A DNA stretch of 64,000 bases, from assembly GCF_040802235.1 (NCBI RefSeq), contig NC_133161.1, positions 107,711,001 through 107,775,000 on the forward strand. The letters are read 5' to 3'. A program made the position numbers and the translations under genes. The notes below the pieces were generated by a model. The model worked only from the letters and a program-made list of their open reading frames with translations, was not told the origin of the DNA and ran no database searches. The stretch is from Manis javanica (lineage: Eukaryota > Chordata > Mammalia > Pholidota > Manidae). Positions 5,077 through 56,880 of this stretch are shown here, in pieces. Positions within the stretch are counted from its first letter, which is position 1. Each line of letters opens with the position of its first letter.

Positions 5077-5326
5077 TGAAGGGCCCCCACCAGTAAGATG
5101 GCAAACTTCTGGCTTCTCTTTGGAGTCCTCGATTCCCGCCGGCGCCACCTGAAGCCCAATCACCTCTCGCCCCCCCTCCCAATCCCAGCACTGAGCCAAT
5201 AGCCACCAGCCCCGTAGAAGTAACACCACAATCACCCCATGCCCCTCCCTATGTAACCCAGCACCTTTCCCTAATAAAGCAGAATTCTCCAGTGAATTGC
5301 TGCTGTGTGTCGCTCCTTTCCTTTCA
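5077..5326 (+). repeat. 5' LTR of class I provirus
   Basis: Starts TGAAGGGCC and ends CTTTCA. It carries a TATA-like TATGTAAC near 5250 and the polyadenylation signal AATAAA at 5273-5278. It matches the 3' LTR along its whole length. Confidence 0.92.
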
Positions 5327-7859: not shown

Positions 7860-9293
7860 CTTCTTGCCTGATCATTTCCATCAGCAAACAAGAGCCCAGG
7901 GTTACTTTAACTGTAGACGGTCTCCCCATCTTCTTCCTCCTAGATACAGGAGCCACTTTCTCAGTCTTGCGAGAATACCGGGGCCCTACCACGCCTGCCA
8001 TTACTCCTATAGTTGGGGTAAGAGCTAAACAGATTTTCCCATTAACCCCCCCCCTTTTATGCACAATCCAAGACGATCCCATACCTTTCTCCCACTCCTT
8101 CCTGGTTCTGCTCCAGTGTCCCATCCCTTTACTACGACGGGACATCCTTACTCTCCTCCATGTTTCCATAACTATATCCACTCCCACAGCCCCCAGTACT
8201 CCCTTTCTGATGGCCCTCATAGCCGACGACCCCCCTCTACCCAATGAAAGCTCCAGTTCCGCCCTCATACACCCTGTAAATCCCAAAGTTTGAGACATTA
8301 CAAGCCCCTCCGTGGCTCTATGTCCTCCTGCCTCTATCAAATTACGTGACCCCTCTCAGTATATCTGTCAGGTCCAATACCCCCTAACCACCTCAGCCCT
8401 CATAGGCCTCCAACCCATCATTCAAGATCTCTTAAACAAAAATTACCTCAGACCCACTCACTCCCCATTTAATACCCCCATATTAGCTGTTAAAAAAACC
8501 AACAGAACTTTCCGCCTCATCCAAGACCTTCGCCTCATCAACATAGCCGTTGTCCCTATCCATCCCTTAGTTCCAAATCCATATACCCTTTTATCGTGGA
8601 TCCCTGCCTCGGCATCCCACTTCTCAGTCCTAGATCTCAAGGATGCATTTTTCTATCCCTCTAGACCCCTCCTCCCAAGATTTTTTCATCTTCACCTGGA
8701 CGGACCCATACACAAGACATTCTGAACAACTCACTTAGACAGTTTTGCCACAAAGCTTCCGAGATAGTCCCCACATTTTTTGGACAGGTCCTAGCTCAGG
8801 ACCTCAAACAGTTTAATCATGATCACCCAACTCCACCTTATTACAATACATGGACAATCTTCTACTCTGCAGTCCCTCGTGAGAACAGTCTCAACTTGAC
8901 ACTGCCTCCATACTTAACCTTCTAGCTTCCAGAAGTTACCAAGTATCCCTCATCAAAGCTCAAATCTCTTCCTCTCCTGTCACTTACCTCAGATTCCTCC
9001 TGTCTCAACAAAGAAAGTCCATTACCTTAGACAGAAAACGGCTCCTCTCTGACCTGCCCGTTCCCAAAACCAAGACAGAAATCCTTTCCTTTCTAAGCCT
9101 GGCTGAGTATTTTAGAGCGTGGATCCCTAACCTCTCCGTGTTAGCAAGACCCCTATATGACCTCAGCAAGGGCCCCCCCTGAAGAACCATTATCCTCCTC
9201 ACCCCGACACTCCTTCATTAAGCTCTGTCAAGCCCTTGTGGAAGCCCCAGGTCTCCATCTTCCTGATTTGTCGAAGCCCTTCTCATTATACAT
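7860..9293 (+). pseudogene. pro-pol pseudogene (protease and reverse transcriptase) of class I provirus
   Basis: The protease shows LLDTGATFSVL with the DTGA active site at 7943-7954. The RT follows with QYPLTTSALIGLQPII, the VLDLKDAFF block (about 8627) and, near 8850, YMDN where the catalytic motif should be YxDD, so the second catalytic aspartate is Asn. Stops and frameshifts follow. The connection domain up to 9280 reads into the KPFSLY block and is cut by the L1 insertion after 9293. The remainder resumes at 22799. Confidence 0.85.
9283..9293 (+). repeat. 11-bp target site duplication of L1 unit 2, left copy
   Basis: TCATTATACAT here is repeated exactly at 22788-22798, bracketing the whole 13.5-kb L1 block. 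The length suits L1 target-primed insertion. Confidence 0.85.
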
Positions 9294-9307
9294 ACTTTTT
9301 TTTTTTT

Positions 9308-9611
9308 TGAGAGGGCATCTCTCATATAATTGATCAAATGGTTGTTAACAACAATAAAATTCAGTATAGGGGGTTCAATGCTCAATGTACAATCATTAAT
9401 CCATCTCAAGCCTAATTCTCGTCAGTCTCCAACCTTCTGAAGCATAACGAACAAGTTCTTACATAGTGAATAAATTCTTACATGGTGAACAGTACAAGGG
9501 CATTCATCACAGAAACATTCGGTTTTGATCACGCATTATGAACTATAAACAATCAGGTCAAATATGAATATTCATTTGATTTTTATACTTGATTTGTATG
9601 TGGATCCCACA
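9308..9611 (-). repeat. retroviral LTR end of L1 unit 2
   Basis: On the minus strand it begins TGTGGGATCC and ends CCCTCTCA, directly followed by the poly(A) of unit 2. It is about 90 percent or more similar to the LTRs at 9665-9988 and 56537-56853. The AATAAA equivalent has decayed to AATTAT. Confidence 0.8.
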
Positions 9612-9619
9612 TTTCTCCC

Positions 9620-9661
<42 letters not shown>

Positions 9662-9664
9662 TTT
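9620..9664 (+). repeat. (ATT)n microsatellite at unit 1 tail
   Basis: About 13 consecutive ATT repeats followed by a T run. On the minus strand this is an AAT-rich tail after the unit 1 LTR. It marks the boundary between the 3' end of unit 1 and the remaining LTR of unit 2. Confidence 0.9.
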
Positions 9665-9988
9665 TGAGAGGGCATCTCTCATATTTATTGATCAAATGGT
9701 GGTTAACAACAATAAAATTCAGTATAGGGGGGTCAATGCTCAATGTACAATCATTAATCCATCTCAAGCCTAATTCTCGTCAGTCTCCAATCTTCTGAAG
9801 CATAACGAACAAGTTCTTACATGGTGAACGAATTCTTACAGAGTGAATAAATTCTTACATGGTGAACAGTACAAGGGCATTCATCACAGAAACTTTCGGT
9901 TTTGATCATGCAATATGACCTATAAACCATCAGGTCAAATATGAATATTCATTTGATTTTTGTACTTGATTTATATGTTGATCCCACA
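9665..9988 (-). repeat. retroviral LTR at 3' end of L1 unit 1
   Basis: On the minus strand it starts TGTGGGATC right after a purine tract (AGGAGAAA), carries AATAAA (complement of 9684-9689) and ends CCTCTCA about 18 bases later, where the A/AAT tail starts. There is no long U5, as expected if the copied RNA was polyadenylated in this LTR. Confidence 0.8.
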
Positions 9989-11305
9989 TTTCTCCTATTA
10001 TTATTATTATTTTTATTTTTAATAAAATGCTGAAGTGGTAGGTAGATGCAAGATAAAGGTAGAAAACATAGTTTAGTGCTGTAAGAAGGCAAATGTAGAT
10101 GATCAGATGATCAGGTGTGTGCCTATGGACTAAGTATTAATCCAGGCTAGACAAGGGCAGCAAGACATCCACGGATGCAGAAGATTTCTCTCAAAGCAGG
10201 GGGGGTGAGGTTCTGAGCCTCACCTCTGTTGATCCCCAAATTCTCACCTGATGGCCCCCCTGCGACTGTGCCTGTCTTAGGTTGTTCCTCCCTTGAGGAA
10301 TCTTACCCGTCTCTGGCTAACCAGTCATCTTCCGGGGCCATACAGGGAAATGTAAAGTTGGTAAGTGAGAGAGAAGCCATATTGTTTGCAAAGGTTAGCT
10401 TTTTACTTCTTTGCAGATTTATGCCCTGTGGCTTCTATGCCCAGCACTTGTCTCGAGGTATCTTTACCACCTGGAGGAATTATGATACTCGGTAAATTCG
10501 ATATGAGGCACGAATTCTATTTAAGGTTTGTAATTAGGAAGGAAGAAGAAAAGCTATAGATGTAGCATATGAAGGAAACTTGGGAGGATTGATTATTTCT
10601 TTGACATATCTTCTTGTATAGTACCTTAAGTATGTATAGGTTTTAAACTACTAACTAATTTGCACACACATATTAACATAATAGGAATACGGTGACATAA
10701 ACAAAGCAAATCTATAATTACCAGCCATCTCCAGTGAAGCCAAGAAAACCATTTAGGCACCCTAGGCATTTGTGAAAATTTATCTATAATATGATGGATA
10801 TTTTCCAACTGTACTTGAACCATCAGACAAATTAAAGCAGCCCATTTCTGGGATCTGTTCACATCCCATATGTTCTTTTAACCATAGATAGTCTATAGTC
10901 ATGAGATTTTGGGGTGCTACAACTTGCACCCCTCCCAACTCCTGGTTGAGTTCCAACAGTACAGATCCAGTCAAATTCGTTGTCTCACTGTATGCACATG
11001 CCAGCCTAGACATCTCCCTCCTCCTTCTTATGGCAAGTCCAGGAGACGGTGGGCTGGATGCAGCCACAACCGCAGCATCGTCCGGATCCCTGGGGAGGCT
11101 TTTTGATGATCATCCCCCGGCACGAGTCCTCCAGAGAGTGCTGATGCCGGAAGCTCCTCCTCATATCGTATCTTATTTCATTTTCTGGGTATCCAAGCTA
11201 GGCCTTGATCTTCTGCGTAGAAACAAACAGACCCTTTGCCCACACTTTGACATGCCCTCTATACCACTGTGCAGAACTCATTGGAGGTCAGCACACAGTA
11301 ACTGC
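9989..11305 (-). pseudogene. retroviral integrase end and envelope TM remnant in L1 unit 1
   Basis: Minus strand. From 11305 down: a short integrase C-terminal block (AWIPRK-like), then a TM envelope subunit with a decayed fusion peptide, a heptad region, the immunosuppressive-like block (QNLMTIDYLWLKEH), a membrane anchor and a short tail, ending near 10626. About 600 bases of 3' non-coding sequence and a purine tract then lead to the LTR. In the CX6CC motif the first of the paired cysteines reads Gly (CEQIPEMGC). Stops and frameshifts are present. No surface (SU) subunit lies between integrase and TM. The cysteine spacing resembles gamma/alpha-type TM proteins; the integrase end looks class II-like (tentative). 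Confidence 0.7.
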
Positions 11306-11851
11306 TTTTTTTTTTTTTTTTTTTAATTAAGAGAAAGGAATATTATCAGAAAAGAGTACCTCCATAGCTGATCATCTGACACCCTTTAAGTGATCAACAT
11401 TAAGGATATTTAAAGCATGCATTGATCTTTGATTTACCAATAGTTTTATCCTGTTAACGAGTAATCCCCTTTTCTTTCTCTCTTTCTTTCTTTTTTTTTT
11501 TTTTTTTTTAAATTTTTAATCTACCCTTACATGAAGAATACTATGTTTACTATGCTCTCCGCTATATCAGGTCCCCCCTAACAACCCCATTACGGTTACT
11601 GTCCATCAGCTTAGCAAAATGTGGTAGAGTCACTACTTGTCCTCTCTGTGTTGTGCAGCCCACCCTCCCCTTTCTCCCTCCCCCCCATGCATGCTAATCT
11701 TAATACCCCCCTTCTTCTTCCCCCCCCTTATCCCTCCCTGCCCACCCATCCTCCCCAGTTCCTTTCCCTTTGGTACCTGTTAGTCCATTTTTGGGTTCTG
11801 TAATTCTGCTGCTGTTTTGTTCCTTCAGTTTTTCCTTTGTTCCTATACTCC

Positions 11852-14800
11852 TCAGATGAGTGAAATCATTTGGTATTTCTCTTTCTCCGCTTGGCTTATT
11901 TCACTGAGCATAATACTCTCCAGCTCCATCCATGTTGCTGCAAATGGTTGGATTTTTCCACTTCTTATGGCTGAGTAGTATTCCATTGTGTATATGTACC
12001 ACATCTTCTTTATCCATTCATCTACAGATGGACATTTAGGTTGCTTCCAATTCTTGGCTATTGTAAATAGTGCTGCGATAAACATAGGAGTGCATCTGTC
12101 TTTCTCAAACTTGATTGCTGCGTTCTTAGGGTAAATTCCTAGGAGTGGAATTCCTGGGTCAAATGGTAGGTCTGTTTTGAGCATTTTGATGCACCTCCAT
12201 ACTGCTTTCCACAATGGTTGAACTAATTTACATTCCCACCAGCAGTGTAGGAGGGTTCCCCTTTCTCCACAGCCTCGCCAACATTTGTTGTTGTTTGTCT
12301 TTTGGATGGCAGCTATCCTTACTGGTGTGAGGTGATACCTCATTGTAGTTTTAATTTGCATTTCTCTGATAATTAGCGATGTGGAGCATCTTTTCATGTG
12401 TCTCTTGGCCATCTGTATTTCTTTTTTGGAGAACTGTCTGTTCAGTTCCTCTGCCCATTTTTTAATTGGGTTATTTGTTTTTTGTTTGTTGAGGCGTGTG
12501 AGCTCTTTATATATTCTGGACGTCAAGCCTTTATCAGATCTGTCATTTTCAAATATATTCTCCCATACTGTAGGGTTCCTTTTTGTTCTATTGATGGTGT
12601 CTTTCGCTGTACAGAAGCTTTTCAGCTTAATGTAGTCCCACTTGCTCATTTTTGCTGTTGTTTTCCTTGCCCGGGGAGATATGTTCAAGAAGAGATCACT
12701 CATGTTTATGTCTAAGAGGTTTTTGCCTATGTTTTTTTCCAAGAGTTTAATGGTTTCGTGACTTACATTCAGGTCTTTGATCCATTTTGAGTTTACCTTT
12801 GTATATGGGGTTAGACAATGGTCCAGTTTCATTCTCCTACATGTAGCTGTCCAGTTTTGCCAGCACCATCTGTTGAAGAGACTGTCATTTTGCCATTGTA
12901 TGTCCATGGCTCCTTTATCAAATATTAATTGACCATATATGTTTGGGTTAATTTCTGGGGTCTCTAATCTGTTCCACTGGTCTGTGGCTCTGTTCTTGTG
13001 CCAGTACCAAATTGTCTTGATTACTATGGCTTTGTAGTAGAGCTTGAAGTTGGGGAGTGAGATCCCCCCTACTTTATTCTTCTTTTTCAGGATTGCTTTG
13101 GCTATTCGGGGTCTTTGGTGTTTCCATATGAATTTTTGAATTATTTGTTCCAATTCATTGAAGAATGTTGCTGGTAATTTGAGAGGGATTGCATCAAATT
13201 TGTATATTGCTTTCGGCAGGATGGCCATTTTGACGATATTAATTCTTCCTAGCCATGAGCATGGGATGAGTTTCCATTTATTAGTGTCCCCTTTAATTTC
13301 TCTTAAGAGTGACTTGTAGTTTTCAGAGTATAAGTCTTTCACTTCCTTGGTTAGGTTTATTCCTAGGTATTTTATTCTTTTTGATGCAATGGTGAATGGA
13401 ATTGTTTTCCTGATTTCTCTTTCTATTCATTCGTTGTTAGTGTATAGGAAAGCTACAGATTTCTGTGTGTTGATTTTGTATCCTGCAACTTTGCTGTATT
13501 CCGATATCAGTTCTAGTAGTTTTGGAGTGGAGTCTTTAGGGTTTTTTATGTACAGTATCATATCATCTGCAAATAGTGACAGTTTAACTTCTTCTTTACC
13601 AATCTGGATTCCTTGTATTTCTTTGTTTTGTCTGATTGCCGTGGCTAGGACCTCCAGTACTATGTTAAACAACAGTGGGGAGAGTGGGCATCCCTGTCTG
13701 GTTCCCGATCTCAGTGGAAATGCTTTCAGCTTCTCGCTGTTCAGTATAATGCTGGCTGTGGGTTTATCATATATGGCCTTTATTATGTTGAGGTACTTGC
13801 CCTCTATTCCCATTTTGCTGAGAGTTTTTATCATGAATGGATGTTGAATTTTGTCAAATGCTTTTTCAGCATCTATGGAGATGATCATGTGGTTTTTGTC
13901 TTTCTTTTTGTTGATGTGGTGGATGATGTTGATGGATTTTCGAATGTTGTACCATCCTTGCATCCCTGGGATGAACCCCACTTGGTCATGGTGTATGATC
14001 CTTTTGATATACTGTTGAATTCTGTTTGCTAATATTTTATTGAATATTTTTGCATCTACGTTCATCAGGGATATTGGTCTGTAATTTTCTTTTTTGGTGG
14101 GGTCTTTGCCTGGTTTTGGTATTAGGGTGATGTTGGCTTCATAGAATGAGTTTGGGAGTATTCCCTCTTCTTCTATTTTGTGGAACACTTTAAGGAGAAT
14201 GGGTATTATGTCTTCTCTGTGTGTCTGATAAAATTCCGAGGTAAATCCGTCCGGCCCCGGGGTTTTGTTCTTGGGTAGTTTTTTGATTACTGTTTCAATT
14301 TCTTTGCTTGTAATTGGTTTGTTTAACTTTTGTGTTTCTTCCTTGGTCAGTCTTGGGAGGTTGTATTTTTCTAGGAAGTTGTCCATTTCTTCTAGGTTTT
14401 CCAGCTTGTTGGCATATAGGTTTTCATAGTAGTCTTTAATAATTCTTTGTATTTCTGTGGAGTCTGTCGTGATTTTTCCATTCTCATTTCTGATTATGTT
14501 GATTTGTGTTGACTCTCTTTTTCTCTTAATAAGTTGGGCTAGAGGCTTATCTATTTTGTTTATTTTCTCAAAGAACCAGCTCTTGGTTTCGTTGATTTTT
14601 GCTATTGTTTTATTCTTCTCAATTTTGTTTATTTCTTCTCTGATCTTTATTATGTCCCTCCTTCTGCTGACTTTAGGCCTCATTTGTTCTTCTTTTTCCA
14701 GTTTTAATAATTGTGATGTTAGACTATTCATTTGGGATTGTTCTTCCTTCTTCAAGTGTGCCTGGATTGCTATATACTTTCCTCTTAAGACTGCTTTCGC

Positions 14801-15694
14801 TGCATCCCACAGAAGTTGGGGCTTAGTGTTGTTGTTGTCATTTGTTTCTATATATTCCTTGATCTCTATTTTGATTTGTTCATTGATCCATTGATTATTT
14901 AGTAGCATGTTGTTAAGCCTCCATGTGTTTGTGAGCCTTTTTGTTTTCTTTGTAGAATTTATTTCTACTTTCATACCTTTGTGGTCTGAAAAATTGGTTG
15001 GTAGAATTTCAATATTGTGGAATTTACTGAGGCTCTTTTTGTGAGCTAGTATGTGGTCTATTCTAGAGAATCTTCCATGTGCACTTGAGAAGAATGTATA
15101 TCCTGTTGCTTTTGGATGTAAAGTTCTATAGATGTCTATTAGGTCCATCTGTTCTAGTGTGTTGTTCAGTGCCTGTGTGTCTTTACTTATTTTCTGCCCG
15201 GTGGATCTATCCTTTGGGGTGAGTGGTGTGTTGAAGTCTCCTACAATGAATGCATTGCAGTCTATTTCCCTCTTTAGTTCTGTTAGTATTTGCTTCACAT
15301 ATGCTGGTGCTCCTGTATTGGGTGCATATATATTTAGAATGGTTATATCCTCTTGTTGGACTAAGCCCTTTATCATTATGTAGTGGCCTTCTTTATCTCT
15401 TGTTACTTTCTTTGTTTTGAAGTCTATTTTGTCTGATATTAGTACTGCAACCCCTGCTTTCTTCTCACTGTTGTTTGCCTGAAATATGTTTTTCCATCCC
15501 TTGACTTTTAGTCTATGCTTATCTTTGGGTTTAAGGTGAGTTTCTTGTAAGCAGCATATAGATGGGTCTTGCTTTTTTATCCATTCTATTACTCTATGTC
15601 TTTTGATTGGTGCATTAAGTCCATTTACATTTAGGGTGACTATTGAAAGATATGTACTTATTGCCATTGCAGGCTTTAGATTCGTGGTTACCAA
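11852..15694 (-). CDS. L1 ORF2p (endonuclease and reverse transcriptase), one premature stop
   Basis: Encodes the L1 enzyme that nicks target DNA and copies its own RNA there. The frame spans 1281 codons, normal for L1 ORF2, and is interrupted only by one TGA after residue 755 (13427-13429). The rest stays in the same frame. Visible from the N-terminus: endonuclease blocks [30 protein letters not shown] and [11 protein letters not shown] blocks [41 protein letters not shown] and the catalytic FADD; and near the C-terminus the cysteine motif [18 protein letters not shown] (CX3CX7HX4C). It lies 168 bases after ORF1. It is technically a pseudogene, but very young. Confidence 0.9.
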
Positions 15695-15862
15695 AGGTTC
15701 AAGGTTAGCTTCTTTAGTATCTTACTGCCTAACTTAGCTCGCTTATTGAGCTGTTATATACACTGTCTGGAGAGTCTTTTCTTCTCTCCCTTCTTATTCC
15801 TCCTCCTCCCTTCTTCATATGTTGTGTGTTTTGTTCTGTGCTCTTTTTAGGGGTGCTCCCAT

Positions 15863-16786
15863 CTAGAGCAGTCCCTGTAGGATGCCCTGTAGAGGTGGTT
15901 TGTGGGAAGCAAATTCCCTCAGCTTTTGCTTGTCTGGGAATTGTTTGATCCCACCATCATATTTAAATGATAGTCGTGCTGGATACAGTATCCTTGGTTC
16001 AAGGCCCTTCTGTTTCATTGCATTAAGTATATCATGCCATTCTCTTCTGGCCTGTAGGGTTTCTGTTGAGAAGTCTGATGTTAGCCTGATTGGTTTTCCT
16101 TTATAGGTGACCTTTTTCTCTCTAGCTGCCTTTAAAACTCTTTCCTTGTCCTTGATCCTTGCCATTTTAATTATTATGTGTCGTGGTGTTGTCCTCCTTG
16201 GATCCTTTCTGTTGGGGGTTCTGTATAATTAAATGGTCTGTTCGATTATTTCCTCCCCCAGTTTGGGGAAGTTTTCAGCAATTATTTCTTCAAAGACCCT
16301 TTCTATCCCTTTTCCTCTTTCTTCCTCTTCTGGTATCCCTATAATACGAATGTTTTTCCTTTTGTATTGGTCACATATTTCTCTTAGTGTTGTTTCATTC
16401 CTGGAGATCCTTTTATCTCTCTCTCTGTCAGCTTCTATACGTTCCTGTTCTCTGGCTTCTATTCCTTCAATGGCCTCTTGCATCTTATCCATTCTGCTTA
16501 TAAATCCTTCCAGGGATTGTTTCACTTCTGTGATCTCTTTCCTGACATCTGTGATCTCCTTCCGGACTTCATCCCACTGCTCTTGCATTTTTCTCTGCAT
16601 CTCATCCCACTGCTCTTGCATTTTTCTCTGCATCTCATCCCATTGCTCTTGCATTTTTTTCTGCATCTCTGTCAGCATGTTCATGATTTTTATTTTGAAT
16701 TCTTTTTCAGGAGGACTAGTTAGGTCTGTCTCCTTCTCAGGTGTTGTCTCTGTGATCTTTGTCTGCCTGTAGTTTTGCCTTTTCAT
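15863..16786 (-). CDS. L1 ORF1p (RNA-binding chaperone), one premature stop
   Basis: ORF1p coats L1 RNA as a coiled-coil trimer. The start ATG at 16786 opens MKRQNYRQTK. The frame of 308 codons (stop included) is broken only by a TAA at 16229-16231 and then continues in the same frame to 15863. The N-terminal half holds a coiled coil with three nearly identical 11-residue units of MQEQWDEMQRK type. The central block IRIIGIPEEEE belongs to the RNA-recognition fold, and the C-terminal block with LQARREW and ARLSFKY is the usual CTD. Length is near that of mammalian ORF1p. Confidence 0.88.
16560..16680 (-). repeat. 33-bp in-frame repeat in ORF1 coiled coil, 3 copies
   Basis: Three almost identical 33-bp units, each coding 11 residues of the ORF1p coiled coil. 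Eleven residues are three helical turns, so adding units lengthens the rod without breaking its register. Confidence 0.85.
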
Positions 16787-18398
16787 GGTGATAGAGATAG
16801 TCTGCAGAGCTGGTACAAGTGACCGCTGGAAGAGCTTCCCTTCTTGTTGGTTTGTAGCCTTTTCCTGGGAGAATAGCGACCTCTAGTGGCTTGTGCTGGG
16901 CAGCTGTGCGCAGACAGGGCTTCTGCTTCCTGCCCAGTTGCTTTGGGGTTTATCTCCACTGTTGCTGTGGGCTTGGCCTGGCTGGGGCTGTTCCTCCAAA
17001 ATGGTGGAGCCCCGTTAGAGGGGGAGCAGCCAGGAGACTATTTATCTCCGTAAGGGGCCTCTGTGCTCCCTGCTGCCCAGGGGGTTAGGGTGCCCAGAGA
17101 TCCCCAGATTCCCTGCTTCTGGTCTAAGTGACCTGTCCTGCCCCTTTAAGATTTCCAAAAAGCACTCTCCAAACCAAAACAACAACAGCAACAATGAGAG
17201 AGGGAACAGAAAGGAAAAAAAAAAAGAAAAAACACGCGATTTTGTTTTTTTTTCCTCAGGTGCCGGTCCCAGGCACCCGCGCACTGGTCCTGCTGCCCTG
17301 TCTCCCTAGCACCAGGGTCCCTGTCCTTTCAAGGCTTCCAAAAAGCACCCACCCACCGGTCCCGCAGGGAAGGAACGCTCAATATTCTTTGTCCTCAGGC
17401 ACTGGTCCCACGCACCCGCTCACCAGTCCTGCCGCCCTGCCTCCCTAGCACCGGGGTCCCTGTCCCTTCAAGGCTTCCAAAAAGCACTTGGCAAAAAGAG
17501 AGAAAAAAAAGGGGAAAAACGCGCGATTTCTTCCGTCCTCAGGTGCTGGTCTCAGGCACCCACCCACCGGTCCCACAGGGAAAAATGCGGGATATTCTTT
17601 GTCCTCAGGTGCCGGTCCCAGGCACCCGCTCACCAGTCCCGCCGCCCTGCCTCCCTAGCACCGGGGTCCCTGTCCCTTTTAGGCTTCCAAAAAGCACTCG
17701 CAGAAAAGAGAAAAAAAAAAGGGGAAAAACGCGCGATTTCCTCTGTCCTCAAGTGCCGGTCTCAGGCACCCGCCCACCGGTCCCGCAGGGAAAAACGGGG
17801 GATATTCTTTGTCCTCAGGCGCCGGTCCCAGCCACCCGCTCACCAGACCCGCCACCGTGCCTCCCTAGCACTGGGGTCCCCGTCCCTTCAAGGCTTCCAA
17901 AAAGCGCTTGCCAAAAAGAGAAAAAAAAAAAGGGGGAAAAACGCGCGACCTCCTCCGTCCTCAGGCACCGGTCTCAGGCACCCGCCCCCAGGTCTCGCAG
18001 GGAGAAACGCGGGATATTCTTTGTCCTCCGGCGCTGTTCCCAGGCACCTCCTCACCGGTCCCGCCACCCTGCCTCCCCAGCAACGGGGGCCCGTCCCTCT
18101 AAGGCTTCCAAAAAGCGCTCGCCAAAAAAAAAAAACTGCTCCGGTTTCTCTCCACCCGCCGGGAGCCGGGGGGAGGGGCGCTCGGGTCCCGCCGGCCTGG
18201 GGCTTGTATCTTACCCCCTTCACAAGGCGCTGGGTTCTTGCAGGTGTGGATGTGGTCTGGATGTTGTCCTGTGTCCTGTGGTCTCTATTTTAGGAAGATT
18301 TTTCTTTGTTATATTTTCATAGCTCTATGTGTTTTTGGGAGGAGATTTCCACTGCTCTACTCACGCCGCCATCTTGGCTCCCGCCCTCCTTGGTAGTC
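16787..18398 (-). promoter_or_regulatory. L1 unit 1 5' UTR / promoter with about 210-bp monomers
   Basis: The block GGCTTCCAAAAAGC recurs with its start at 17333, 17472, 17682, 17892 and 18103, that is spacings of 139, 210, 210 and 211 bp; a decayed copy lies near 17151. Each unit also holds a purine run (AGAAAAAAAAAGGGG), an ACGCGCGA box and a CACCCGCYCACC box. L1 transcription starts in the 5' UTR, and tandem monomeric promoters are known from mouse L1. The region is GC-rich, with CpGs in each monomer. Confidence 0.85.
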
Positions 18399-19715
18399 TA
18401 TTTTTATTTTTAATAAAATGCTGAAGTGGTAGGTAGATGCAAGATAAAGGTAGAAAACATAGTTTAGTGCTGTAAGAGGGCAAATGTAGGTGATCAGGTG
18501 TGTGCCTATGGACTAAGTATTAATCCAAGCTAGACAAGGGCAGCAAAACATCCACGGATGCAGAAGATTTCTCTCAAAGCAGGGGGGGGTGAGGTTCTGA
18601 GCCTCACCTCTGTTGATCCCCAATTTCTCACCTGATGGCCCCCCTGCGACTGTGCCTGTCTTAGGTTGTTCCTCCCTTGAGGAATCTTACCCGTCTCTGG
18701 CTAACCAGTCCTCTTCCGGGGCCATACAGGGAAATGTAAAGTTGGTAAGTGAGAGAGAAGCCATATTGTTTGAAAAGGTTAGCTTTTTACTTCTTTGCAG
18801 ATTTATGCCCTGTGGCTTCTATGCCCAGCACTTGTCTCGAGGTATCTTTACCACCTGGAGGAATTATGATACTCGGTAAATTCGATATGAGGCATGAATT
18901 CTATTTAAGGGTTGTAATTAGGAAGGAAGAAGAAAAGCTATAGAGGTAGCATATGGAAGAAAACATGGGAGGATTGATTATTTCTTTGACATATCTTCTT
19001 GTAGAGTACCTTAAGTATGTATAGGTTTTAAACTTCTAACTAATTTGCGCACACATATTAACATAATAGGAATACGGTGACATAAACAAAGCAAATCTAT
19101 AATTACCATCCATCTCCAGTGAAGCCAAGAAAACCATTTAGGCACCCTAGGCATTTGTGAAAATTTGTCTATGATATGATGGATATTGTCCTACTGTACT
19201 TGAACAGTCTGAGAAAAATCAGACAAATTAAAGCAGCCCATGTCTGGGATCTCTTCACATCCCACATGTTCTTTTAACCATAGATAGTCTATAGTCATAA
19301 GATTTTGGAGTGCTACATCTTGCACCCCTCCCAACTCCTGGTTGAGTTCCAACAGTGCATATCTGGTCAAATTCATTGTCTCACGTATGCACATGCCAGC
19401 CTAGACATCTCCCTCCTCATTCCAATGGCAAGTCAAGGAAACGGTGGGGTGGACGCAGCCACAACCGCAGCATCGCCCGGATTCCTGTGGAGGCTCTTTG
19501 ATGATCATCCCCTGGCACGAGTCCTCCAGAGAGTGCTGATGCCAGAAGCTCCTCCTCATATCATATCTTAGATCATTTTCTGGGTATCCAAGCTAGGCCT
19601 TGATCTTCTGCATAGAAACAAACAGACCCTTTGCCCACACTTTGACATGCCCTGTATACCACTGTGCAGAACTCATTGGAGGTCAGCACATAGGGACTGC
19701 CTTTTTTTTTTTATT
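18399..19715 (-). pseudogene. retroviral TM remnant in L1 unit 2
   Basis: Collinear with the unit 1 segment 9989-11305 and highly similar to it. It includes the QELGGVQ and IDYLWLKEH blocks of the TM envelope subunit (around 19394-19200) and the 3' non-coding stretch. Stops and small indels break it. Its LTR lies at 9308-9611, separated by the insertion of unit 1. Confidence 0.75.
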
Positions 19716-20222
19716 AAGAGAAAGGAATATTATCAGAAAAGAGGACCTCCATAGCTGATCATCTGACACCCTTTAAGTGATCAACATGAAGGATATTTAA
19801 AGCATGCATTGATCTTTGATTTACCAATAGTTTTATCCTATCAAGGAGTAATCCCCCTTTTCATTCTTTCTTTCTTTTTTTTAAATCTTTAATCTACACT
19901 TACATGAAGAATACTATGTTTACTATGCTCTCCCCTATATCAGGTCCCCCCTAACAACCACATTACGGTTATTGTCCATCAGCTTAGCAAAATGTTGTAG
20001 AGTCACTACTTGTTCTCTCTGTGTTGTGCAGCCCACCCTCCCCTTGCTCCCTCCCCCCATGCATGCTAATCTTAATACCCCCCTTCTTTCCCCCCCCCTT
20101 ATCCCTCCCTGCCCACCCATCCTCCCCAGTTCCTTTCCCTTTGGTATCTGTTAGTCCATTTTTGGGTTCTGTAATTCTGCTGCTGTTTTGTTCCATCAGT
20201 TTTTCCTTTGTTCCTATACTCC

Positions 20223-22787
20223 TCAGATGAGTGAAATCATTTGGTATTTCTCTTTCTCCACTTGGATTATTTCACTGAGCATAATACTCTCCAGCTCCAT
20301 CCATGTTGCTGCAAATGGTTGGATTTTTCCACTTCTTATGGCTGAGTAGTATTCCATTGTGTATATGTACCACATTTTCTTTATCCATTCATCTACCGAT
20401 GGACATTTAGGTTGCTTCCAATTCTTGGCTATTGTAAATAGTGCTGTGATAAACATAGGGGTGCATCTGTCTTTCTCAAACTTGATTGCTGCGTTCTTAG
20501 GGTAAATTCCTAGGAGTGGAATTCCTGGGTCAAATGGTAGGTCTGTTTTGAGCATTTTGATGAACCTCCAAACTGCTTTCCACAATGGTTGAACTAATTT
20601 ACATTCCCACCAGCAGTGTAGGAGAGTTCCCCTTTCTCCACAGCCTCGCCAACATTTGTTGTTGTTTGTCTTTTGGATGGTAGCTATCCTTACTGGTGTG
20701 AGGTGATACCTCATTGTAGTTTTAATTTGCATTTCTCTGATAATTAGCGATGTGGAGTATCTTTTCATGTGTCTATTGGCCATCTGTATTTCTTTTTTAG
20801 AGAACTGTCTGTTCAGTTCCTCTGCCCATTTTTTAATTGGATTATTTGTTTTTTGTTTGTTCAGGCATGTGAGCTCTTTATATATTCCTGGACGTCAAGC
20901 CTTTATCGGATCTGTCATTTTCAAATATATTCTCCCATACTGTAGGGTTCCTTTTTGTGCTATTGATGGTGTCTTTTGCTGTACAGAAGCTTTTCAGCTT
21001 AATGTAGTCCCACTTCCTCATTTTTGCTGTTGTTTTCCTTGCCCGGAGAGATATGTTCAAGAAGAGGTCACTCATGTTTATGTCTAAGAGGTTTTTGCCT
21101 ATGTTTTTGTCCAAGAGTTTAATTGTTTCATGACTTACATTCAGGTCTTTAATTCATTTTGAGGTTACCTTTGTATATGGGGTTAGACAATGGTCCAGTT
21201 TCATTCTCCTACACGTAGCTGTCCAGTTTTGCCAGCACCATCTGTTGAAGAGACTGTCATTTTGCCATTGTATGTCCATGGCTCCTTTATCAAATATTAA
21301 TTGACCATATTTGTTTGGCTTAATGTGTGGAGCCCCTAATCTGTTCCACTGGTCTGTGGCTCTGTTCTTGTGCCAGTACCAAATTGTCTTGATTACTATG
21401 GCTTTGTAGTAGAGCTTGAAGTTGGGGAGTGAGATCCCCCCTACTTTATTCTTCTTTTTCAGGATTGCTTTGGCTATTCGGGGTCTTTGGTGTTTCCATA
21501 TGAATTTTTGAATTATTTGTTCCAATTCATTGAAGAATGTTGTTGGTAATTTGAGAGGGATTGCATCAAATCTGTATATTGCTTTGGGCAGGATGGCCAT
21601 TTTGACGATATTAATTCTTCCTAGCCATGAGCATGGGATGAGTTTACGTTTATTAGTGTCCCGTTTAATTTCTCTTAAGAGTGCCTTGTAGTTTTCAGAG
21701 TATAAGTCTTTCACCTCTTTGGTTAGGTTTATTCCTAGGTATTTTATTCTTTTTGATGCAATGGTGAATGGAATTGTTTTCCTGATTTCTCTTTCTATTG
21801 ATTCATTGTTAGTGTATTGGAAAGCTACAGATTTCTGTGTGTTAATTTTCTATCCTGCAACTTTGCTGCATTCCGATATCAGTTCTAGTAGTTTTGGAGT
21901 GGAGTCTTTAGGGTTTTTTATGTACAGTATCATATCAACTGCAAATAGTGACAGTTTAACTTCTTCTTTACCAATCTGGATTCCTTGTATTTCTTTGTTT
22001 TGTCTGATTGCCGTGGCTAGGATCTCCAGTACTATGTTGAATAACAGTGGGGAGAGTGGGCATCCCTGTCTTGTTCCCGATCTCAGAGGAAATGCTTTCA
22101 GCTTCTCGCTGTGCAATATAATGCTGGCTGTGGGTTTATCATATATGGCCTTTATTATTTTGAGGTACTTGCCCTCTATTCCCATTTTGCTGAGAGTTTT
22201 TATCATGAATGGATGTTGAATTTTGTCAAATGCTTTTTCAGCATCTATGGAGATGATCATGTGGTTTTTGTCTTTCTTTTTGTTGATGTGGTGGATGATG
22301 TTGATGGATTTTCGAATGTTGTACCATCCTTGCATCCCTGGGATGAACCCCACTTGGTCATGGTGTATGATCCTTTTGATATACTGCTGAATTCTGTTTG
22401 CTAATATTTTGTTGAGTATTTTTGCATCTACATTCATCAGGGATATTGGTCTGTAATTTTCTTTTTTGGTGGGTTCTTTGCCTGGTTTTGGTATTAGGGT
22501 GATGTTGGCTTCATAGAATGAGTTTGGGAGTATTCCCTCTTCTTTTATTTTTTGGAACACTTTAAGGAGAATGGATATTATGTCTTCTCTGTGTGTCTGA
22601 TAAAATTCCGAGGTAAATCCGTGCGGCCCCGGGGTTCTGTTCTTTGGTAGTTTTTTGCTTACCTTTTCAATTTCTTTGCTTGTAATTGGTTTGTTTAACT
22701 TTTGTGTTTCTTCCTTGGTCAGTCTTGGGAGGTTGTATTTTTCTAGGAAGTTGTCCATTTCTTCTAGGTTTTCCAGCTTGTTGGCAT
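20223..22787 (-). pseudogene. L1 ORF2 C-terminal two thirds, unit 2
   Basis: Covers ORF2 from the region before the RT ([12 protein letters not shown]) to the C-terminus. RT blocks and the C-terminal cysteine motif are recognisable. The catalytic FADD reads FAVD ([11 protein letters not shown]), a TAG follows at 21850, and further breaks lie near 21150 and 20780-20880. It is clearly less intact than unit 1, in keeping with unit 1 having inserted into it. Confidence 0.85.
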
Positions 22788-22798
22788 TCATTATACAT
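22788..22798 (+). repeat. 11-bp target site duplication of L1 unit 2, right copy
   Basis: TCATTATACAT, identical to 9283-9293. Confidence 0.85.
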
Positions 22799-25126: not shown

Positions 25127-25374
25127 TGAAGGGCCCCCATCAGTAAGATGGCAAACTTCCGGTTTCTCTTCGGAGTCCTCGGTTCTCACCGGCGCCACTT
25201 GAAGCCCAATCACCTCTCGCCCCCCTCCCAATCCCAGCACCTAGCCAACAGCCACCAGCCCCGTAGAAGTAACACCACAATCACCCATGCCCCTTCCTAT
25301 ATAACCCAGCACCTTTCCCTAATAAAGCGGAATTCTCCGGTGAATTGCTGCGTTGTGTCGGTCCTTTCCTTTCA
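25127..25374 (+). repeat. 3' LTR of class I provirus
   Basis: Starts TGAAGGGCC, has TATATAAC near 25300 and AATAAA at 25321-25326, and ends CTTTCA followed by the ACAGC duplication. About 18 substitutions separate it from the 5' LTR. Confidence 0.92.
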
Positions 25375-29406: not shown

Positions 29407-36249
<6,843 letters not shown>

Positions 36250-46192: not shown

Positions 46193-47167
46193 CTACTCCT
46201 GACAACACACATAAGAATCACAAAGGGGAGACGGATTAAGGATGGCAGCGTGGAAGGTGAGACAGAGAACTGCTCCAAAAACCACATACATTATGAAAAT
46301 ATAGTTAATACAACTAATCCTGAAAGAGCAACAGGAAAGAAGGCTGCAAGAGACTGTATACACCTGGAGAACAGAGGAGACCTCACGAAATGTGGTAATA
46401 TACCAAAGCCTTGATCCAGCAGGACCCAAGCCCTTCCCGAACCCCAGCTCACCAGCTGGAGGAAGGAAAACAGAGTGGGGAGGGGGTGGAAGCCTAGGAC
46501 TGCTCAACACCCAGCCCTGGAGGTCTACTATGGAAGCACAAACCTACATTGCAAGGTGCTCTGGAGATTAGTGGTGCTGGAAAGCTAAGACAGGCAGAAT
46601 ACTTCAAGAGACTAAGGATCCAGCCATTTGTGGAGGACAGGGATCCACATCCAGCTGGTCTGAGATAGAGGAAAGATGGGCTGTCTGAGAGGCTTCATAA
46701 CAGGGAGAGGGCTGCTGAAGGGGCGGGGTTTGCACGGAGCTTGATGTGCAGGAGAAAAGATAGGTGGACAAGGTTGTCTGGGCACACTTTGCCCAGCAGG
46801 TTGGTAACTTTCAGGAGATTCAAGTGCTCTAGCCCCCTGGCTGGCTACTCAGCTCAGAGGCTCCTCACTGTGATACGCAGCCTGCCACGCCTTCCTCCTG
46901 GCCTGCGAACATCAGCTCACAAACAGGCAGTCCTTGCCCTGGTGACAGGCCTGCCAGAGGGAAGCCCCACCTATGGCAACTACAGAAACACAGAGGCTTA
47001 CACCTGTGTGCTAGGCCCACTGGCTCTGATACTGGAGACAGCCACTGCAGCCAGGAATCAGGAAACACCTCTTTCCTTGCCCCCAGGCACCAGTGCTGCT
47101 CCCCTGCAACCCACAACATCACTCCAGAGGCTGAGTAGCTGCAGAGACTAGACCTTCTGGGCACTAC

Positions 47168-47503
47168 ATGGTGACATATACAAATTCGAAATTTCAAAGG
47201 AACCAGGTTCAGACCAAAATCTCAAAAACACCAGAAAAAGGCCCAAATGAAACTAAACTCACCAATCTTCCTGAAAGTGAGTACAAAATAAAAATCATGA
47301 ACATGCTCATGGAGGTACAGAAAAATAGTCAAGAACTCAGGGAAGAATTAAGGATGAATATTCAATCATTAAGAAATTCAATATCAGAAATGAAACTTAC
47401 AATGGAGGGATTTAAAAGCAACTTAGATGTAGTAGAAGAGACAGCAAATGGAATACAAATTAGAGCAGAGGAATACAAAGAAGCTGAGGCACAGAAGGAA
47501 AAA
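47168..47503 (+). pseudogene. L1 ORF1 N-terminal half (host L1)
   Basis: Open for 112 codons, with the coiled-coil region (MLMEVQKNSQELREELR and SISEMKLTMEGFKSNLD). It lacks the 11-residue triplication seen in unit 1. It is cut at 47503 by the L1 array, and the rest of ORF1 lies at 57378. Confidence 0.75.
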
Positions 47504-47513
47504 AAGGATCTCT
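47504..47513 (+). repeat. 10-bp target site duplication of the L1 array, left copy
   Basis: AAGGATCTCT is repeated exactly at 57368-57377. The ORF1 frame of the host L1 is broken exactly here. Confidence 0.85.
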
Positions 47514-50500
47514 GGGGCGAAGCCAAGATGGCAGCGTGAGTAGAGCAGCGGAAATCTTCTCCCAAAACCACATATATTTTTGAAAATAAAACAAATACAA
47601 CTATCCCTAAAAGAGAGACCAGAAGACACAGGACAACAGCCAGACTACATCCACACCTGTGAGAACCCAGCACCTTGCAAAGGGGCTAAGATACAAGCCA
47701 CGGCCCAGCAGGACCCGAGCGCCCCTCACCCCAGCTCCCGGTAGGAGGACAGGAGTCAGAGAAGGGAGGGAGAGGGAGCCCAGGACTGATAAACACCCAG
47801 CCCTAGCCATCCTCACCAGAGCGCAGACACAGTGCATGCGTGGGGTGCTGGATACTAGGGAAACAGGACAGTAAGACCTGTGAGCAGGTCCCTGCAGCCG
47901 GAGCCCCAGGGACAAAGAAAAGCAAGTGCTTTTTGGAAGTTCTAAAGGGACAGGGACCCCACAGCTGGACAGAAGCGTCCCGGGAAACTTAGCCCAGCAA
48001 CAAGGAATCCCGGGGAACTCTTGGCACCCTAAACCCTGGATAGCAGGGCAGCTCAGAGGCCCCTCATGGAGATAAACAGCCTCCCGGCCGTTTCCCCTTC
48101 GACACGGCTCCGCCATGTCGGAATAGCAGCCCGAGGCAGGCCATACCTACAGCAACAGCAGAGATAAACTCCATAGTGGCCGGGCAAGAATAAGAAGCCC
48201 TGTCTGTGTGCAGCTGCCCGGCACAAGCCACTAGACGTCACTGTTCTCCCAGAAGAAGAAGGGCACAAACCAACATGAAGAGACGTTCTCCAAGCCGTGA
48301 CTCATGCCAGCTCTGCTAACTATATCTATCGCCATGAAAAGGCAGAATTTAAAGTAGACAAAGATCACAGAGGCAACACCTGAGAACAAGATAGACCTAA
48401 CCAGTCCTCCTCAAAAAGAATTCAAAATAAAAATCATAAACATCCTGAAAGATACAGAGAAATATACAAGAGCTAAGGGATGATGTCCAGAGGGAGATGA
48501 CGAAGTGAAACAATCTTCGGAAGCATTTATAAGCAGAATGGATAAGATGCAAGAGGCCATTGATGGAATGGAAACCAGAGAACAGGAATGCATAGAAGCT
48601 GACACACAGAGAGATAAAAGGATCTCCAGGAATAAAACACTATTAAGAGAACTGTGTAACCAATGCAAATGGAACAATATCCGCATTATAGGGGTCCCGG
48701 AAGAAGAGAGAGAAAAGGGGATAGAAAGTGTCTTTGATGAAATAATTGCTGAAAATTTCCCCAAACAGGGGTAGGAAATAATCGATCAGACCATGGAAGT
48801 ACACTAAACTCCCAAAAGAAAGGACCCAAGGAGGACAACACCAAGACACATAATAATTGAAATGGCAAAGATCAAGGACAAAGACAGAGTTTTAAAGGAG
48901 CTAGAGAGAAGGAAAAGGTCACCTATAAAGGAAAACCCATCAGGCTATCATCAGACTTCCCAACAGAAACCCTACAGGCCAGAAGAGAATGGCATGATAT
49001 ATTTAATTCAATGAAAAAGAAGGGCCTTGAACCAAGAATACTGTATCCAGCACGATTATCATTTAAATATGAAGGAGCAATTAAACAATTCCCAGACAAG
49101 CAAAAGTTGGGGCAATTTGCCTCCCCCACCTCTACAGGATATTTTAGAGGGACTATTCTAGATGGGAGCACTCCTCTAAGACTAAACAGATGTCACCAGA
49201 GAAAATTAAATCACAGCAAAGAAAGCAGACCAACTAAATACTAACTAAAGGCAAAAAATAAAATCAACTACCCACAAAAGCAGTAAAAGGAAACAAATAA
49301 AAAAAAGAGCACAGAATAAAACACCTAACATATAAAGAATGGAAGAGGAGGATTAAGGAAGGGGAGAAATAAAGAATCACCAGACAGTGTTTATAACAGT
49401 TCAATAAGCAAGTTAAGTTATACAGTAAGATACTAAAGAAGCTAACCTTGAACCTTTGGTAACCACGAATCTAAAGCCTGCAATAGCAATAAGTACATAT
49501 CTTTCAATGGCCACCCTAAATGTAAATGGACTGAATGCACCAATCAAAAGACACAGTAATAGAATAGATAAAAAAGCAAGACCCATCTATATGCTGCTTA
49601 CAAGAAACTCACCTTAAACCCAAAGACAGGCACACACTAAAAGTCAAGGGATGGAAAAACATATTTCATGCAAACAACAGAGAGAAGAAAGCAGGGGTTG
49701 CAGTACTAGTATCAGAAAAATAGACTTTAAAACAAAGATAGTAAGAAGAGATAAAGAAGGTCATTACATAATGATAAAGGGCTCAGTCCAAAAACAGGAT
49801 ATAACCATTACAAATATAGATGCACCCAACACAGGAGTACCAGCATATGTGAAACAAATACTAACAGAAGTAAAGAAGGAAATAAAATGCAATGCATTCG
49901 TTTTAGGAGACTTCAAAACACCATTCAATCCAAAGGACAGATCCACCAGGCAGAAAATAAGTAAGGACAAAGAGGCACTGAACAATACATTAGAACAGAT
50001 GGACCTAATAGACATCTACAGAACACTCTACCCAAAAGAACCAGGATACACATTCTTCTCAAGTTCACATGGAAAATTCTCCAGAATAGACCACATACTA
50101 GGTCATAAAAAACTTTAGTAAATTCCAAAAGATTGAAATTCTATCAACCAACTTTTCAGACCACAGGGGTATAAAACTAGAAATAAATTGTACAAAGAAA
50201 ACAAAAAGGCTCACAAACACATGGAGGCTTAACAACATGCTCCTAAATAATCAATGGATCAATGAACAAATAAAATAGAGATCAAGGAATATATGGAAAC
50301 AAATGAAAACAACACCACAAAGCCCCAACTTCTGTGGGGCGCAGCAAAAGCAGTCTTAAGAGGAAAGTATATAGCAACCCAGGCATATTTAAAGAAGGAA
50401 GAACAAACCCAAATGAATAGTCTAATGTCACAATTATCAAAACTGGAAAAAGAAGAACAAATGAGGCCTAAAGTCAGCAGAAGGAGGGACATAATAAAGA

Positions 50501-53500
50501 TCAGAGAAGAAATAAAAAAAATTGAGAAGAATAAAACAATTGAAAAAAATCCATGAAACCAGGAGCTGGTTCCTTGAGAACATAAACAAAATAGATAAGC
50601 CTCTAGCCAAACTTATTAAGAGAAGAAGGGAATCCACACACATTAACAGAATCAAAAACAAGAATGGAAAAATCATGACAGACCCCACAGAAATACAAAG
50701 AATTATTAGAGACTACTATGAAAACCTATATGCTAACAAGCTGGAAAACCTAACCTAGAAGAAATGGTCAACTTCCTAGAAAAATACAAGCTTCCAAGAC
50801 TGACCAAGGAAGAAACACAAAAGTTAAACAAACCAATCATGAGCAAAGAAATTGAAGCGGTAATCAAAAAAACTACCCAAGAACAAAACCCCCAGGCCAG
50901 ACAGATTTACCTCAGAATTTTATCAGACATCCACAGAAGATTTAATACCCATTCTCCTTAAAGTTTTCCAAAAAATAGAAGAGGAGGGAATACTCCCAAA
51001 CTCATTCTATGAAACCGACATCACCCTAATACTAAAACCAGGCAAAGACCCCACAAAAAAGAAAATTACAGACCAATATCTCTGATGAATGTAGATGCAA
51101 AAATACTCAATAAAATATTAGCGAACCGAATTCAAAAATATATCAAAAGGATCATATACCACAACCAAGTGGGATTCATCCCAGGGACGCAAGGATGGTA
51201 CAACATTCGAAAATCCATCAACATCATCCACCACATCAACAAAAAGGACAAAAACCACATGATCATCTCCATAGATGCTGAAAATGCATTCGACAAAATT
51301 CAACATCCATTCATGATAAAAACTCTAAGCAAAATGGGTATAGAGGGCAAGTACCTCAACATAATAATGCCACATATGATAAACCCACAGCAACATCATA
51401 CTGAACAGCAAGAAGCTGAGAGCTTTTACTCTTGAGATCAGGAACAAGACAGGGATGCCCACTCTCCCCACTGTTATTCAACATAGTACTGGAGGTCCTA
51501 GCCACGGAAATTAGACAAAACATAGAAATAAAAGGAATCCAGATTGGTAAAGAAGAAGTTAAACTGTCACTATTTGCAGATGACATGATATTGTACATAA
51601 AAAACCCTAAAGACTACACTCCAAAACTATTAGAACTGATACCGGAATACAGCAAAGTTGCAGGATACAAAATTAACACACAGAAATCTGTGGCTTTCCT
51701 ATACAATAACAATGAACTAACAGACAGAGAAATCAGGAAAACAATTCCATTCACAATTAAATCAAAAAGAATAAAATACCTAGGAATAAACCTAACCAAG
51801 GAAGTGAAAGACCTATACCCTGAAAACTACAAGACACTCAAGAGAAATTAAAGAGGACACTAACAAATGGAAACTCATCCCATTCTCTTGGCTATGAAGA
51901 ATTAATATAGTCAAAATGACCATCCTGCCCAAAGCAATATACAGATTTGATGCAATCCCTATCAAATTACCAGCAACATTCCTCAAAGAACTGGAACAAA
52001 TAGTTCAAAAATTCATATGGAAACACCAAAGACCCTTAAAAGCCAAGGCAAACCTGAGAAAGAAGAATAAAGTGGGGGAATGTCAAACCCCAACTTCAAG
52101 GTCTACTACAAAGCCATAGTAATCAAGACAATTTGGTACTGGCACAAGAACAGAGCCACAGACCAGTGGAACAGATTAGAGACTCCAGACATTAACCCGA
52201 ACATATATGATCAATTAATATTTGATAAAAGGGCCATGGACATATAATGGGGAAAGAACCGTCTATTCAACAGAATAGTGCTGGCAAAACTGGACAGCTA
52301 TATGTAAGAGAATGAAACTGGATCACTGTCTAACCCCATACACAAAAGTAAATTCGAAATGGATCAAAGACCTGAATATCACAATAAAACAATAAAACTA
52401 ATAAAACTCTTAGAAAAAAACACAGGCAAAAATCTCTTAGACATAAACATGAGTGACCTCTTCTTGAACATATCTCCCCGGGCAAGGGAAACAAAAGTAA
52501 AAATGAACAAATGGGACCATATCAAGCTGAAAAGCTTCTGTACAGCAAAGGACACCATCAATAGGACAAAAAGGTATCCTACAGTATGGGAGAATATATT
52601 CATAAATGACACATCCGATAAAGGGTTGACATCCAAAATATATAAAGAGCTCACACACCTCAATAAACAAAAAGCAAATAATGCAATTAAAAATGGGCAG
52701 AGGAGCTGAATAGACAGTTCTCTAAAGAAGAAATTCAGATGGCCAACAGACACATGAAAAGATGCTCCACATCGCTTGTCATCAGAGAAATGCAAATTAA
52801 AACATCAATGAGATATCACCTCAAACCGGTAAGGATTGCCACCATCCAAAAGACAAACAACAACAAATGTTGGCGAGGTTGTGGAGAAAGGGGAACCCTC
52901 CTACACTGCTGGTGAGAATGTAAATTAGTTCAACCATTGTGGAACCATAGTTCAACAATGGTGGTTCCTCAAAATGCTCAAAATAGAAATACCATTTGAC
53001 CCAGGAATTCCACTTCTAGGAATTTAGCCTAAGAATGCAGCACTCCAGTTTGAAAAGGACAGATGCATCCCTATGTTTATCGCTGCACTATTTACAGTAG
53101 CCAAGATATGGAAGCAACCTAAGTGTCCTTCAGTAGATGAATGGATAAAGAAGATGTGGTACATATACACAATGGAATATTATTCAGCGATAAGAAGAAA
53201 ACAAATCCTACAATTTGCAACAACATGGATGGTGCTAGAGGGTATTATGCTCAGTGAAACAAGCCAGGCACAGAAAGACAAGTACCAAATGATTTCCCTC
53301 ATATGTGGAGTATATGAACAAAAGAAAACTGAAGGAACAAAAAAGCAGCAGAAGCACCGAACCCAAGAATGGACTAACAGTTACCAAAGGGAAAGGGACT
53401 GGGGAGGATGGGTGGGAAGGGAGGGATAAGGATGGGAAAAAAGAAAGCAGGCATTACGATTAACATGTATAGTGTGGGGGAGAGGCATGGGAAGGGCTGT

Positions 53501-53648
53501 GAAACACAGAGAATACAAGTAATGATTTTACAGCATCTTACAATGTTGATGGACAGTGACTGTGAACGGGTATGTTGGGGGGAGCCTAGTGAACATAATG
53601 TCCTTCATGTAATTGTAGATTGATGATACCAAAATAAAATTTAAAAAA
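47514..53648 (+). mobile_element. full-length L1 (unit E) inserted in the old L1
   Basis: The 5' UTR begins GGGGCGAAGCCAAGATGGCAG and resembles the 5' end of unit 1, but without the monomer array. ORF1 begins at the ATG at 48334 (MKRQNL, followed by a stop) and is broken by frameshifts to about 49244. ORF2 runs about 49490-53340 in pieces. The 3' UTR ends in AATAAAATTTAAAAAAAA at 53648. It has no retroviral tail. Its left duplication (47504) is not repeated right after its own poly(A) but only after the next two elements. Confidence 0.85.
49490..53340 (+). pseudogene. L1 ORF2 pseudogene of unit E
   Basis: Endonuclease blocks (FVLGDFKTPFNPKDRS), RT blocks ([35 protein letters not shown]) and the C-terminal region ([16 protein letters not shown]) are all recognisable in order. 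There are at least eight frame breaks. It is more decayed than unit 1. Confidence 0.85.
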
Positions 53649-56853: not shown

Positions 56854-56880
56854 AAAGAAAAAATAATAATAATAATAATT

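Follow-up and report, generated by a model that had tools for sequence, protein, structure and literature searches.

A pangolin L1 family with a retroviral TM-LTR segment as its 3' end

An L1 family of thousands of pangolin copies, some of them recent and nearly identical, carries a piece of an endogenous retrovirus (ERV) as its 3' end. The tailed copies are an L1 family and not a segmental duplication. We consider it probable, at roughly 0.8, that an ancestral pangolin L1 gained new 3' ends by transcriptional read-through and that the chimera then amplified.

Tailed and untailed L1 copies in the window

The window, which is the whole stretch of 64,000 nucleotides of Manis javanica DNA that was analysed, contains three tailed L1s (units 1, 2 and C) on two strands, as determined by self-BLAST and inspection of the boundaries. 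Their parts, and the two untailed L1s of the window, are as follows.

9284-9293: left copy of the unit 2 target duplication, 10 bases, CATTATACAT (boundary inspection)
9297 to about 9650, minus strand: 3' piece of unit 2, with LTR and poly(A), severed by unit 1
9654-18398, minus strand: unit 1, a full-length L1 with retroviral tail, sitting inside unit 2 (self-BLAST, boundaries)
9666-9988, minus strand: LTR U3-R of unit 1, from TGTGGGAT to the poly(A) site, without U5
9989-9996, minus strand: purine tract of unit 1, directly before the LTR start TGTGGGAT
10200-10500, minus strand: post-TM core of unit 1, the stretch with the fewest lineage-level changes
10253-10339, minus strand: conserved hairpin of unit 1 within the post-TM core, a candidate RNA export element
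10640-11110, minus strand: envelope TM remnant of unit 1, placed by alignment to unit C
10930-11267, minus strand: tract of unit 1 with an A-to-G burst fixed in the young lineage
11110-11306, minus strand: integrase C-terminal end of unit 1, assigned from the Pfam match of the unit C piece
11307-11324, minus strand: second A-tract of unit 1 (a T-run on the plus strand)
11325-11470, minus strand: linker of unit 1 (junction alignment)
11471-11514, minus strand: first A/GAAA tract of unit 1
11515-11851, minus strand: L1 3' UTR of unit 1
11852-15721, minus strand: L1 ORF2 frame of unit 1, with a single in-frame stop at 13427-13429
17130-18398, minus strand: L1 5' UTR of unit 1, with monomers of roughly 210 bases
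18399-22787, minus strand: 5' piece of unit 2, with the upstream part of the tail as far as the post-TM segment, linker, L1 3' UTR and partial ORF2; 5'-truncated
22789-22798: right copy of the unit 2 target duplication, CATTATACAT (boundary inspection)
about 46230 to 62397: untailed L1 D, interrupted
47514-53648, plus strand: untailed L1 E, ending in AATAAA and an A-tail
53649-56880, plus strand: unit C, an older tailed L1, 5'-truncated (self-BLAST, boundaries, junction alignment)

Alignment of units 1, 2 and C showed a common order: the L1 3' UTR, an A and then a GAAA tract, a linker of about 150 bases, an A-tract and the retroviral part. The latter runs from the integrase end through envelope TM, a post-TM segment, the purine tract and LTR U3-R to poly(A). 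The initial annotation had described the same arrangement in three L1s on two strands, and the self-BLAST, the boundaries and the aligned junctions all agree with it. The two L1s that it had listed as lacking the tail, D and E, both end without it, as judged from their boundaries and the junction alignment.

The roughly 210-base monomers of the L1 5' UTR span positions 17345-18135 of the window. Unit 2 interrupts a provirus-like region at 5077-25374, the flanking repeats of which (5077-5326 and 25127-25374) are 92% identical. This region was considered as a source of the tail and rejected, as it had no match to the tail in a nucleotide self-BLAST (E 1e-10, pieces of at least 120 bases). The window also contains NACAD, a frame of 1,375 aa at 31229-35356 with 96% identity over 92% to a Manis javanica protein, which identifies the host as a pangolin; its reading frame includes 30-base repeats at 33177-34070.

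The retroviral reading of the tail as integrase end, TM, purine tract and LTR is supported, and the support is weak in places. In unit C, the TM piece gave a match to ASLV fusion TM chains (E 3.3e-7) and a weak one to Pfam GP41 (E 0.13), and the integrase-end piece matched Pfam IN_DBD_C with an E value of 0.0035 and 17 bits, under the cut-off of 21. Pfam returned nothing for seven of the ten tail pieces submitted, the TM piece of unit 1 included. A protein search with the TM piece matched 22 of 28 candidates, all unnamed (21 from ENA and one from another source). In IMG/VR, no relatives were found by a single exact LTR-end pattern or by the TM piece (three pattern matches, none confirmed), and the 25 contigs returned by a motif scan were taken as chance. 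Rfam contained no RNA family that reached the gathering score in the window, and the tail itself gave three weak, unrelated matches. The integrase end and TM directly adjoin, with no room for envelope SU, which is gone from the captured segment. About 600 bases of post-TM sequence separate TM from the purine tract. The TM frame is open across 134 codons in unit C and is broken in unit 1; the protein is, therefore, not what is kept.

Copy number, mobilization and 3' ends of the family

The initial annotation proposed that copies be counted by their junction. We searched the 2.56 Gb assembly with a 20-base pattern from the linker core (up to two mismatches) and a 28-base pattern from the LTR end (up to three mismatches). 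The linker core occurred at 14,767 places (7,353 and 7,414 on the two strands), well beyond chance because the reversed pattern occurred at only 4, and the LTR end at 29,456 places (14,765 and 14,691; control, 0). The family thus extends far outside the window. Forty loci, the first 40 of the 100 linker places listed, were compared in detail; all are exact matches on one contig (C1), which biases the sample toward copies close to the linker query. The L1 3' UTR joins the linker at the same point in 38 of the 40; L024 starts in the A-tract and L058 has no L1 3' UTR. The integrase end and TM come next after the linker in all 40, and the LTR end lies within the fetched stretch in 38 (not L058 and L069), each time with an A-run after it. 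In L019, L026 and L059 this A-run comes after ACACACAC beyond the LTR end. The same junction had been claimed at independent sites, and across the three units and the fetched loci its position is indeed constant apart from tract length; the alternative that junction positions differ between loci was rejected on this ground.

Two further features were seen among the fetched loci. L018 has three LTR matches in a row (L018:161-1233), which may reflect insertions, one after another, into the A/AAT-rich end of a tail. L027 and L028 have in common a partial duplication of the L1 3' UTR, possibly a side branch.

The LTR ends are about twice as numerous as the linkers, a rough ratio since one pattern is longer than the other and tolerates more mismatches. 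One interpretation of this excess treats the tail as an independent element, SVA-like or SINE-like, that was joined to L1 repeatedly, by template switching or adjacent insertion, and the tail-only copies are indeed common. The 40 loci were chosen by their linker, and any tails with other 5' ends would lie outside that sample. However, 5' truncation predicts the same excess toward the 3' end, and the copies with a linker run into L1 at the same place in 38 of 40 cases; we, therefore, regard repeated joining of a separate element as improbable.

Are the shared junctions merely copies of one duplicated locus? Some of the fetched loci are mutual duplicates (L011/L016; L012/L013/L021/L022; L009/L017; L019/L026/L059), as would be expected if segmental duplication of a single L1-plus-ERV locus had spread the junction. 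Against this, extraction of target duplications, as the initial annotation had suggested, identified nine distinct ones of 13-17 bases that enclose tailed copies among the 40 loci (L011, L012, L014, L015, L020, L023, L025, L063 and L067, duplicated loci counted once). In the same scan, 16 short stretches stop before the 5' end, and the remaining loci gave nothing convincing. The 5' truncation points also differ among copies, the 3' ends are set by poly(A), and the junction occurs at thousands of places. Segmental duplication as the source of the shared junction is contradicted by these observations, and we give it next to no weight.

At each of the nine loci, and in unit 2 of the window, the whole L1 and its tail lie within one target duplication. 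Together with the terminal A-tails and the varied 5' truncation points, this argues that the chimera retrotransposes as one RNA. Both an A-tract between the L1 3' end and the transduced piece and a terminal poly(A) are present. ORF1, ORF2 and the 5' UTR are all found in the tailed family, coding being judged from open frames. Among the 20 long loci compared, L015 and L018 have an ORF1 of 328 and 326 aa, respectively, and an ORF2 of 1,289 aa, open from stop to stop, and L014 has open frames of 328 and 1,253 aa.

The initial annotation further suggested that the chimera used the AATAAA of the LTR, which in unit 1 lies 18 bases before the poly(A) site. At L1's own 3' end, AATAAA is absent from 39 of 41 tailed copies and present in two (L014 and L064). 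When the weaker ATTAAA is also counted, 35 of the 41 have a signal at this end, in most cases ATTAAA. Among the old tailed copies, L070 has ATTAAA, and no hexamer of either kind is present in unit C, L066 or L019/L026/L059; the same is true of L060, which is not old. Untailed L1s end in AATAAA in four of six testable cases (D, E, L020 and L027), within A-rich ends; the other two ends, those of the untailed L1 downstream in L019 and L026, are one duplicated site and lack it, and the end in L010 is cut off. In all, 46 LTR ends were seen, in the window and among the fetched loci. The next 20 bases contain 12 or more A residues in 43 of them, three open with 8-10, and U5 followed the LTR end in none of the 46. 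As read from these DNA ends, the env/LTR segment forms the 3' end and the poly(A) site of the L1-mobilized unit. Because the DNA copies end there, we infer that transcripts end at the LTR signal, L1's own AATAAA being gone. The suggested use of the LTR signal agrees, at the level of DNA, with ends at the LTR poly(A) site and with the loss of the L1 AATAAA from most copies.

A tree of 18 L1 3' regions, tailed and untailed, placed unit C, L026, L012 and unit 2 on a ladder that leads to the young copies, most of which have branches under 1% (L010, L025 and L028 are at 1.7-2.3%). The untailed copies D and L020-upstream lie outside this ladder, and untailed E and L026-downstream lie at an unresolved base alongside tailed L019. 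The reading of the tree is limited at D and L020-upstream, at the root and by short rows, which cover 23-29% of the columns. The best tree has two changes of the tail label, and a single change is found in 32% of 200 bootstrap trees. The proposal that the tail marks a sublineage thus holds insofar as the tailed copies form a ladder with the untailed ones outside it or at its base, but one origin is recovered in only those 32%. The tails of L019, L026 and L059 are 96-99% identical and have the same 3' flank, but L019 and L026 occupy separate positions in the L1 tree. These three loci might be explained by duplication combined with exchange.

How could such a 3' end have been assembled? The initial annotation envisioned a single read-through into an ERV. 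Amplification of the chimera as one unit is consistent with our results, but the linker between two A-tracts suggests two steps. L1 may have acquired the linker downstream first and the ERV piece afterwards, in which case the two A-tracts would represent two successive joins. With its own AATAAA gone, transcripts would then run on to the LTR signal. The earlier reading is refined by these two joins, the loss of AATAAA at the L1 end, the thousands of copies and an apparently constrained part of the tail.

Nucleotide changes and a conserved hairpin within the tail

Young copies carry a burst of A-to-G change, read in the sense of the element, in the integrase end and the first half of TM, with 35 A>G (at 10930-11267) versus 7 T>C. 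The base before the changed A is A or T in 27 of the 35, and the base after it is G in 16. A second burst is private to L028. Set against four young copies, this locus shows 84 changes over about 7 kb; of the 84, 27 fall in the final 592 columns of the alignment, and all 27 are A>G. Taken together, the two bursts suggest two or more reinsertions of edited L1 RNA. The type of change and the neighbouring bases point to ADAR as the enzyme. If this is true, the bursts would be DNA traces of ADAR-edited and reinserted L1 RNA, one of which became the founder of a lineage.

To describe lineage-level change, 13 young copies were set against four old ones that are independent of each other (L059, L066, L070 and unit C). 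The post-TM core has 8 fixed old-young differences over 299 sites and the integrase end plus TM has 77 over 652, with private changes similar in the two regions (32 and 73, respectively; fixed/private, p 0.00034). Our initial reading of divergence overstated constraint, because the A-to-G burst inflates the change in the integrase end and TM. When A>G is left out, the core has 4 fixed differences in 298 sites versus 96 in the 1,696 sites outside it (p 0.00075; fixed/private, p 0.0036), and private changes are 0.101 versus 0.100 per site. Compared with the L1 3' UTR alone, the core gave p 0.018 for fixed differences per site and p 0.12, which is not significant, for fixed/private. The core was picked after an initial look at regional divergence and the correction by scan was added later; the lowest stretch of 300 sites lies at 10560-10260, with 3 changes, and a value as low was obtained in 110 of 20,000 permutations. 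Whichever old copy is removed, the core still has a count of 1-3 changes in about 300 sites. The LTR end has 6 fixed and 7 private changes, versus 77 and 73 in the integrase end and TM (p 0.78). The LTR end, slow in fixed and private changes alike, thus gives no sign of selection.

Part of the tail, namely the post-TM core of about 300 bases, appears from these counts to be under constraint. Alternatively, the chimera might be as described and the tail carried along passively, with chance or recombination among subfamilies accounting for the small number of changes in the core. We give this explanation a chance just short of even: the old copies number four, the region was chosen with the divergence already seen, the scan-corrected result is modest, and the L1 3' UTR is similar in its fixed/private ratio. 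On the other hand, the deficit in the core persists without any one old copy and without A>G, and the hairpin is conserved in a second ERV-like context.

The hairpin, at 10253-10339, has internal loops and folds with a z of -3.08 in unit 1, whereas the fold in the older unit C is not significant (z -0.58); for the wider 331 bases, z is -2.06. Fifteen aligned copies were too alike to show any covariation. The second context is an ERV-like fragment (L009:4488-4990 and L017:4487-4989) that has no match to the TM or LTR of the tail; its post-TM segment is 77% identical overall and its hairpin 95%, as would be expected of a portable element. In simple retroviruses, transport elements are placed after env and before the 3' LTR, and the post-TM core lies between TM and the purine tract/LTR. 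The hairpin is, by this analogy, a candidate RNA export element, export being its likeliest role. Simple retroviruses carry transport elements that act via NXF1 (PMC1363727). The likeness to constitutive transport elements is one of position and, as seen in unit 1, of a fold with internal loops.

The post-TM segment might, then, have been kept as an aid to the RNA, most likely in nuclear export in the manner of constitutive transport elements. A bolder proposal would be that the L1 lineage adopted a retroviral module made up of this CTE-like hairpin and the LTR poly(A) signal, that selection kept the hairpin segment as the TM frame degenerated, and that the module contributed to the rise of the lineage as a major young pangolin L1, independently of SVA but in parallel to the way in which SVA gained its env-LTR 3' end. 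We advance it tentatively, with the odds against it, and have lowered our estimate slightly because the LTR end gives no sign of selection.

Comparison with known systems

Transduction of 3' flanking DNA by L1 is known. A 2019 source describes a human 3' transduction family with 14 members as the largest found until then (PMC6425141). Like human 3' transductions, the pangolin copies carry DNA from downstream between A-tracts, stop at a downstream poly(A) signal and lie as a whole within one target duplication. They differ in number, with more than 14,000 linker places versus the 14 members given in that source, and in that the transduced piece terminates an entire L1 family. What is new is that the 3' end of an ERV was transduced and now forms the terminus of a large L1 family with coding copies; it represents 3' transduction at very high copy number on a coding L1.

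Composite L1 insertions in which L1 is joined to small RNAs, Alu or mRNAs have been described (PMC13174262). As presented there, they are single insertions or small sets, many of them joined at the 5' side of L1, and the main text mentions no pangolin, Manis or endogenous retrovirus. In titles and abstract openings of the open-licence PMC literature, we found no report of a tailed pangolin L1 chimera. Repeat annotation of pangolins would change, as tail-only copies could be called ERV/LTR although they were made by L1.

A further close parallel is SVA, which is mobilized by L1, consists in part of hexamer, Alu-like and VNTR sequences and has no coding capacity of its own. In both cases an env/LTR segment supplies the 3' end of an L1-mobilized unit, which for the pangolin family is read from DNA ends. 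The SINE-R of SVA comes from HERV-K10, namely its env 3' end and 3' LTR, with an A-tail after it (PMC12593883). In the pangolin, L1 itself lies upstream of the retroviral part, in place of the CCCTCT hexamer/Alu-like/VNTR/SINE-R order, and the captured segment rides on an L1 of which some copies have both frames open. SVA and the tailed L1s thus offer a natural comparative test of why L1-mobilized elements have come to end in env-LTR more than once, the candidate reasons being the poly(A) signal, RNA export, or both.
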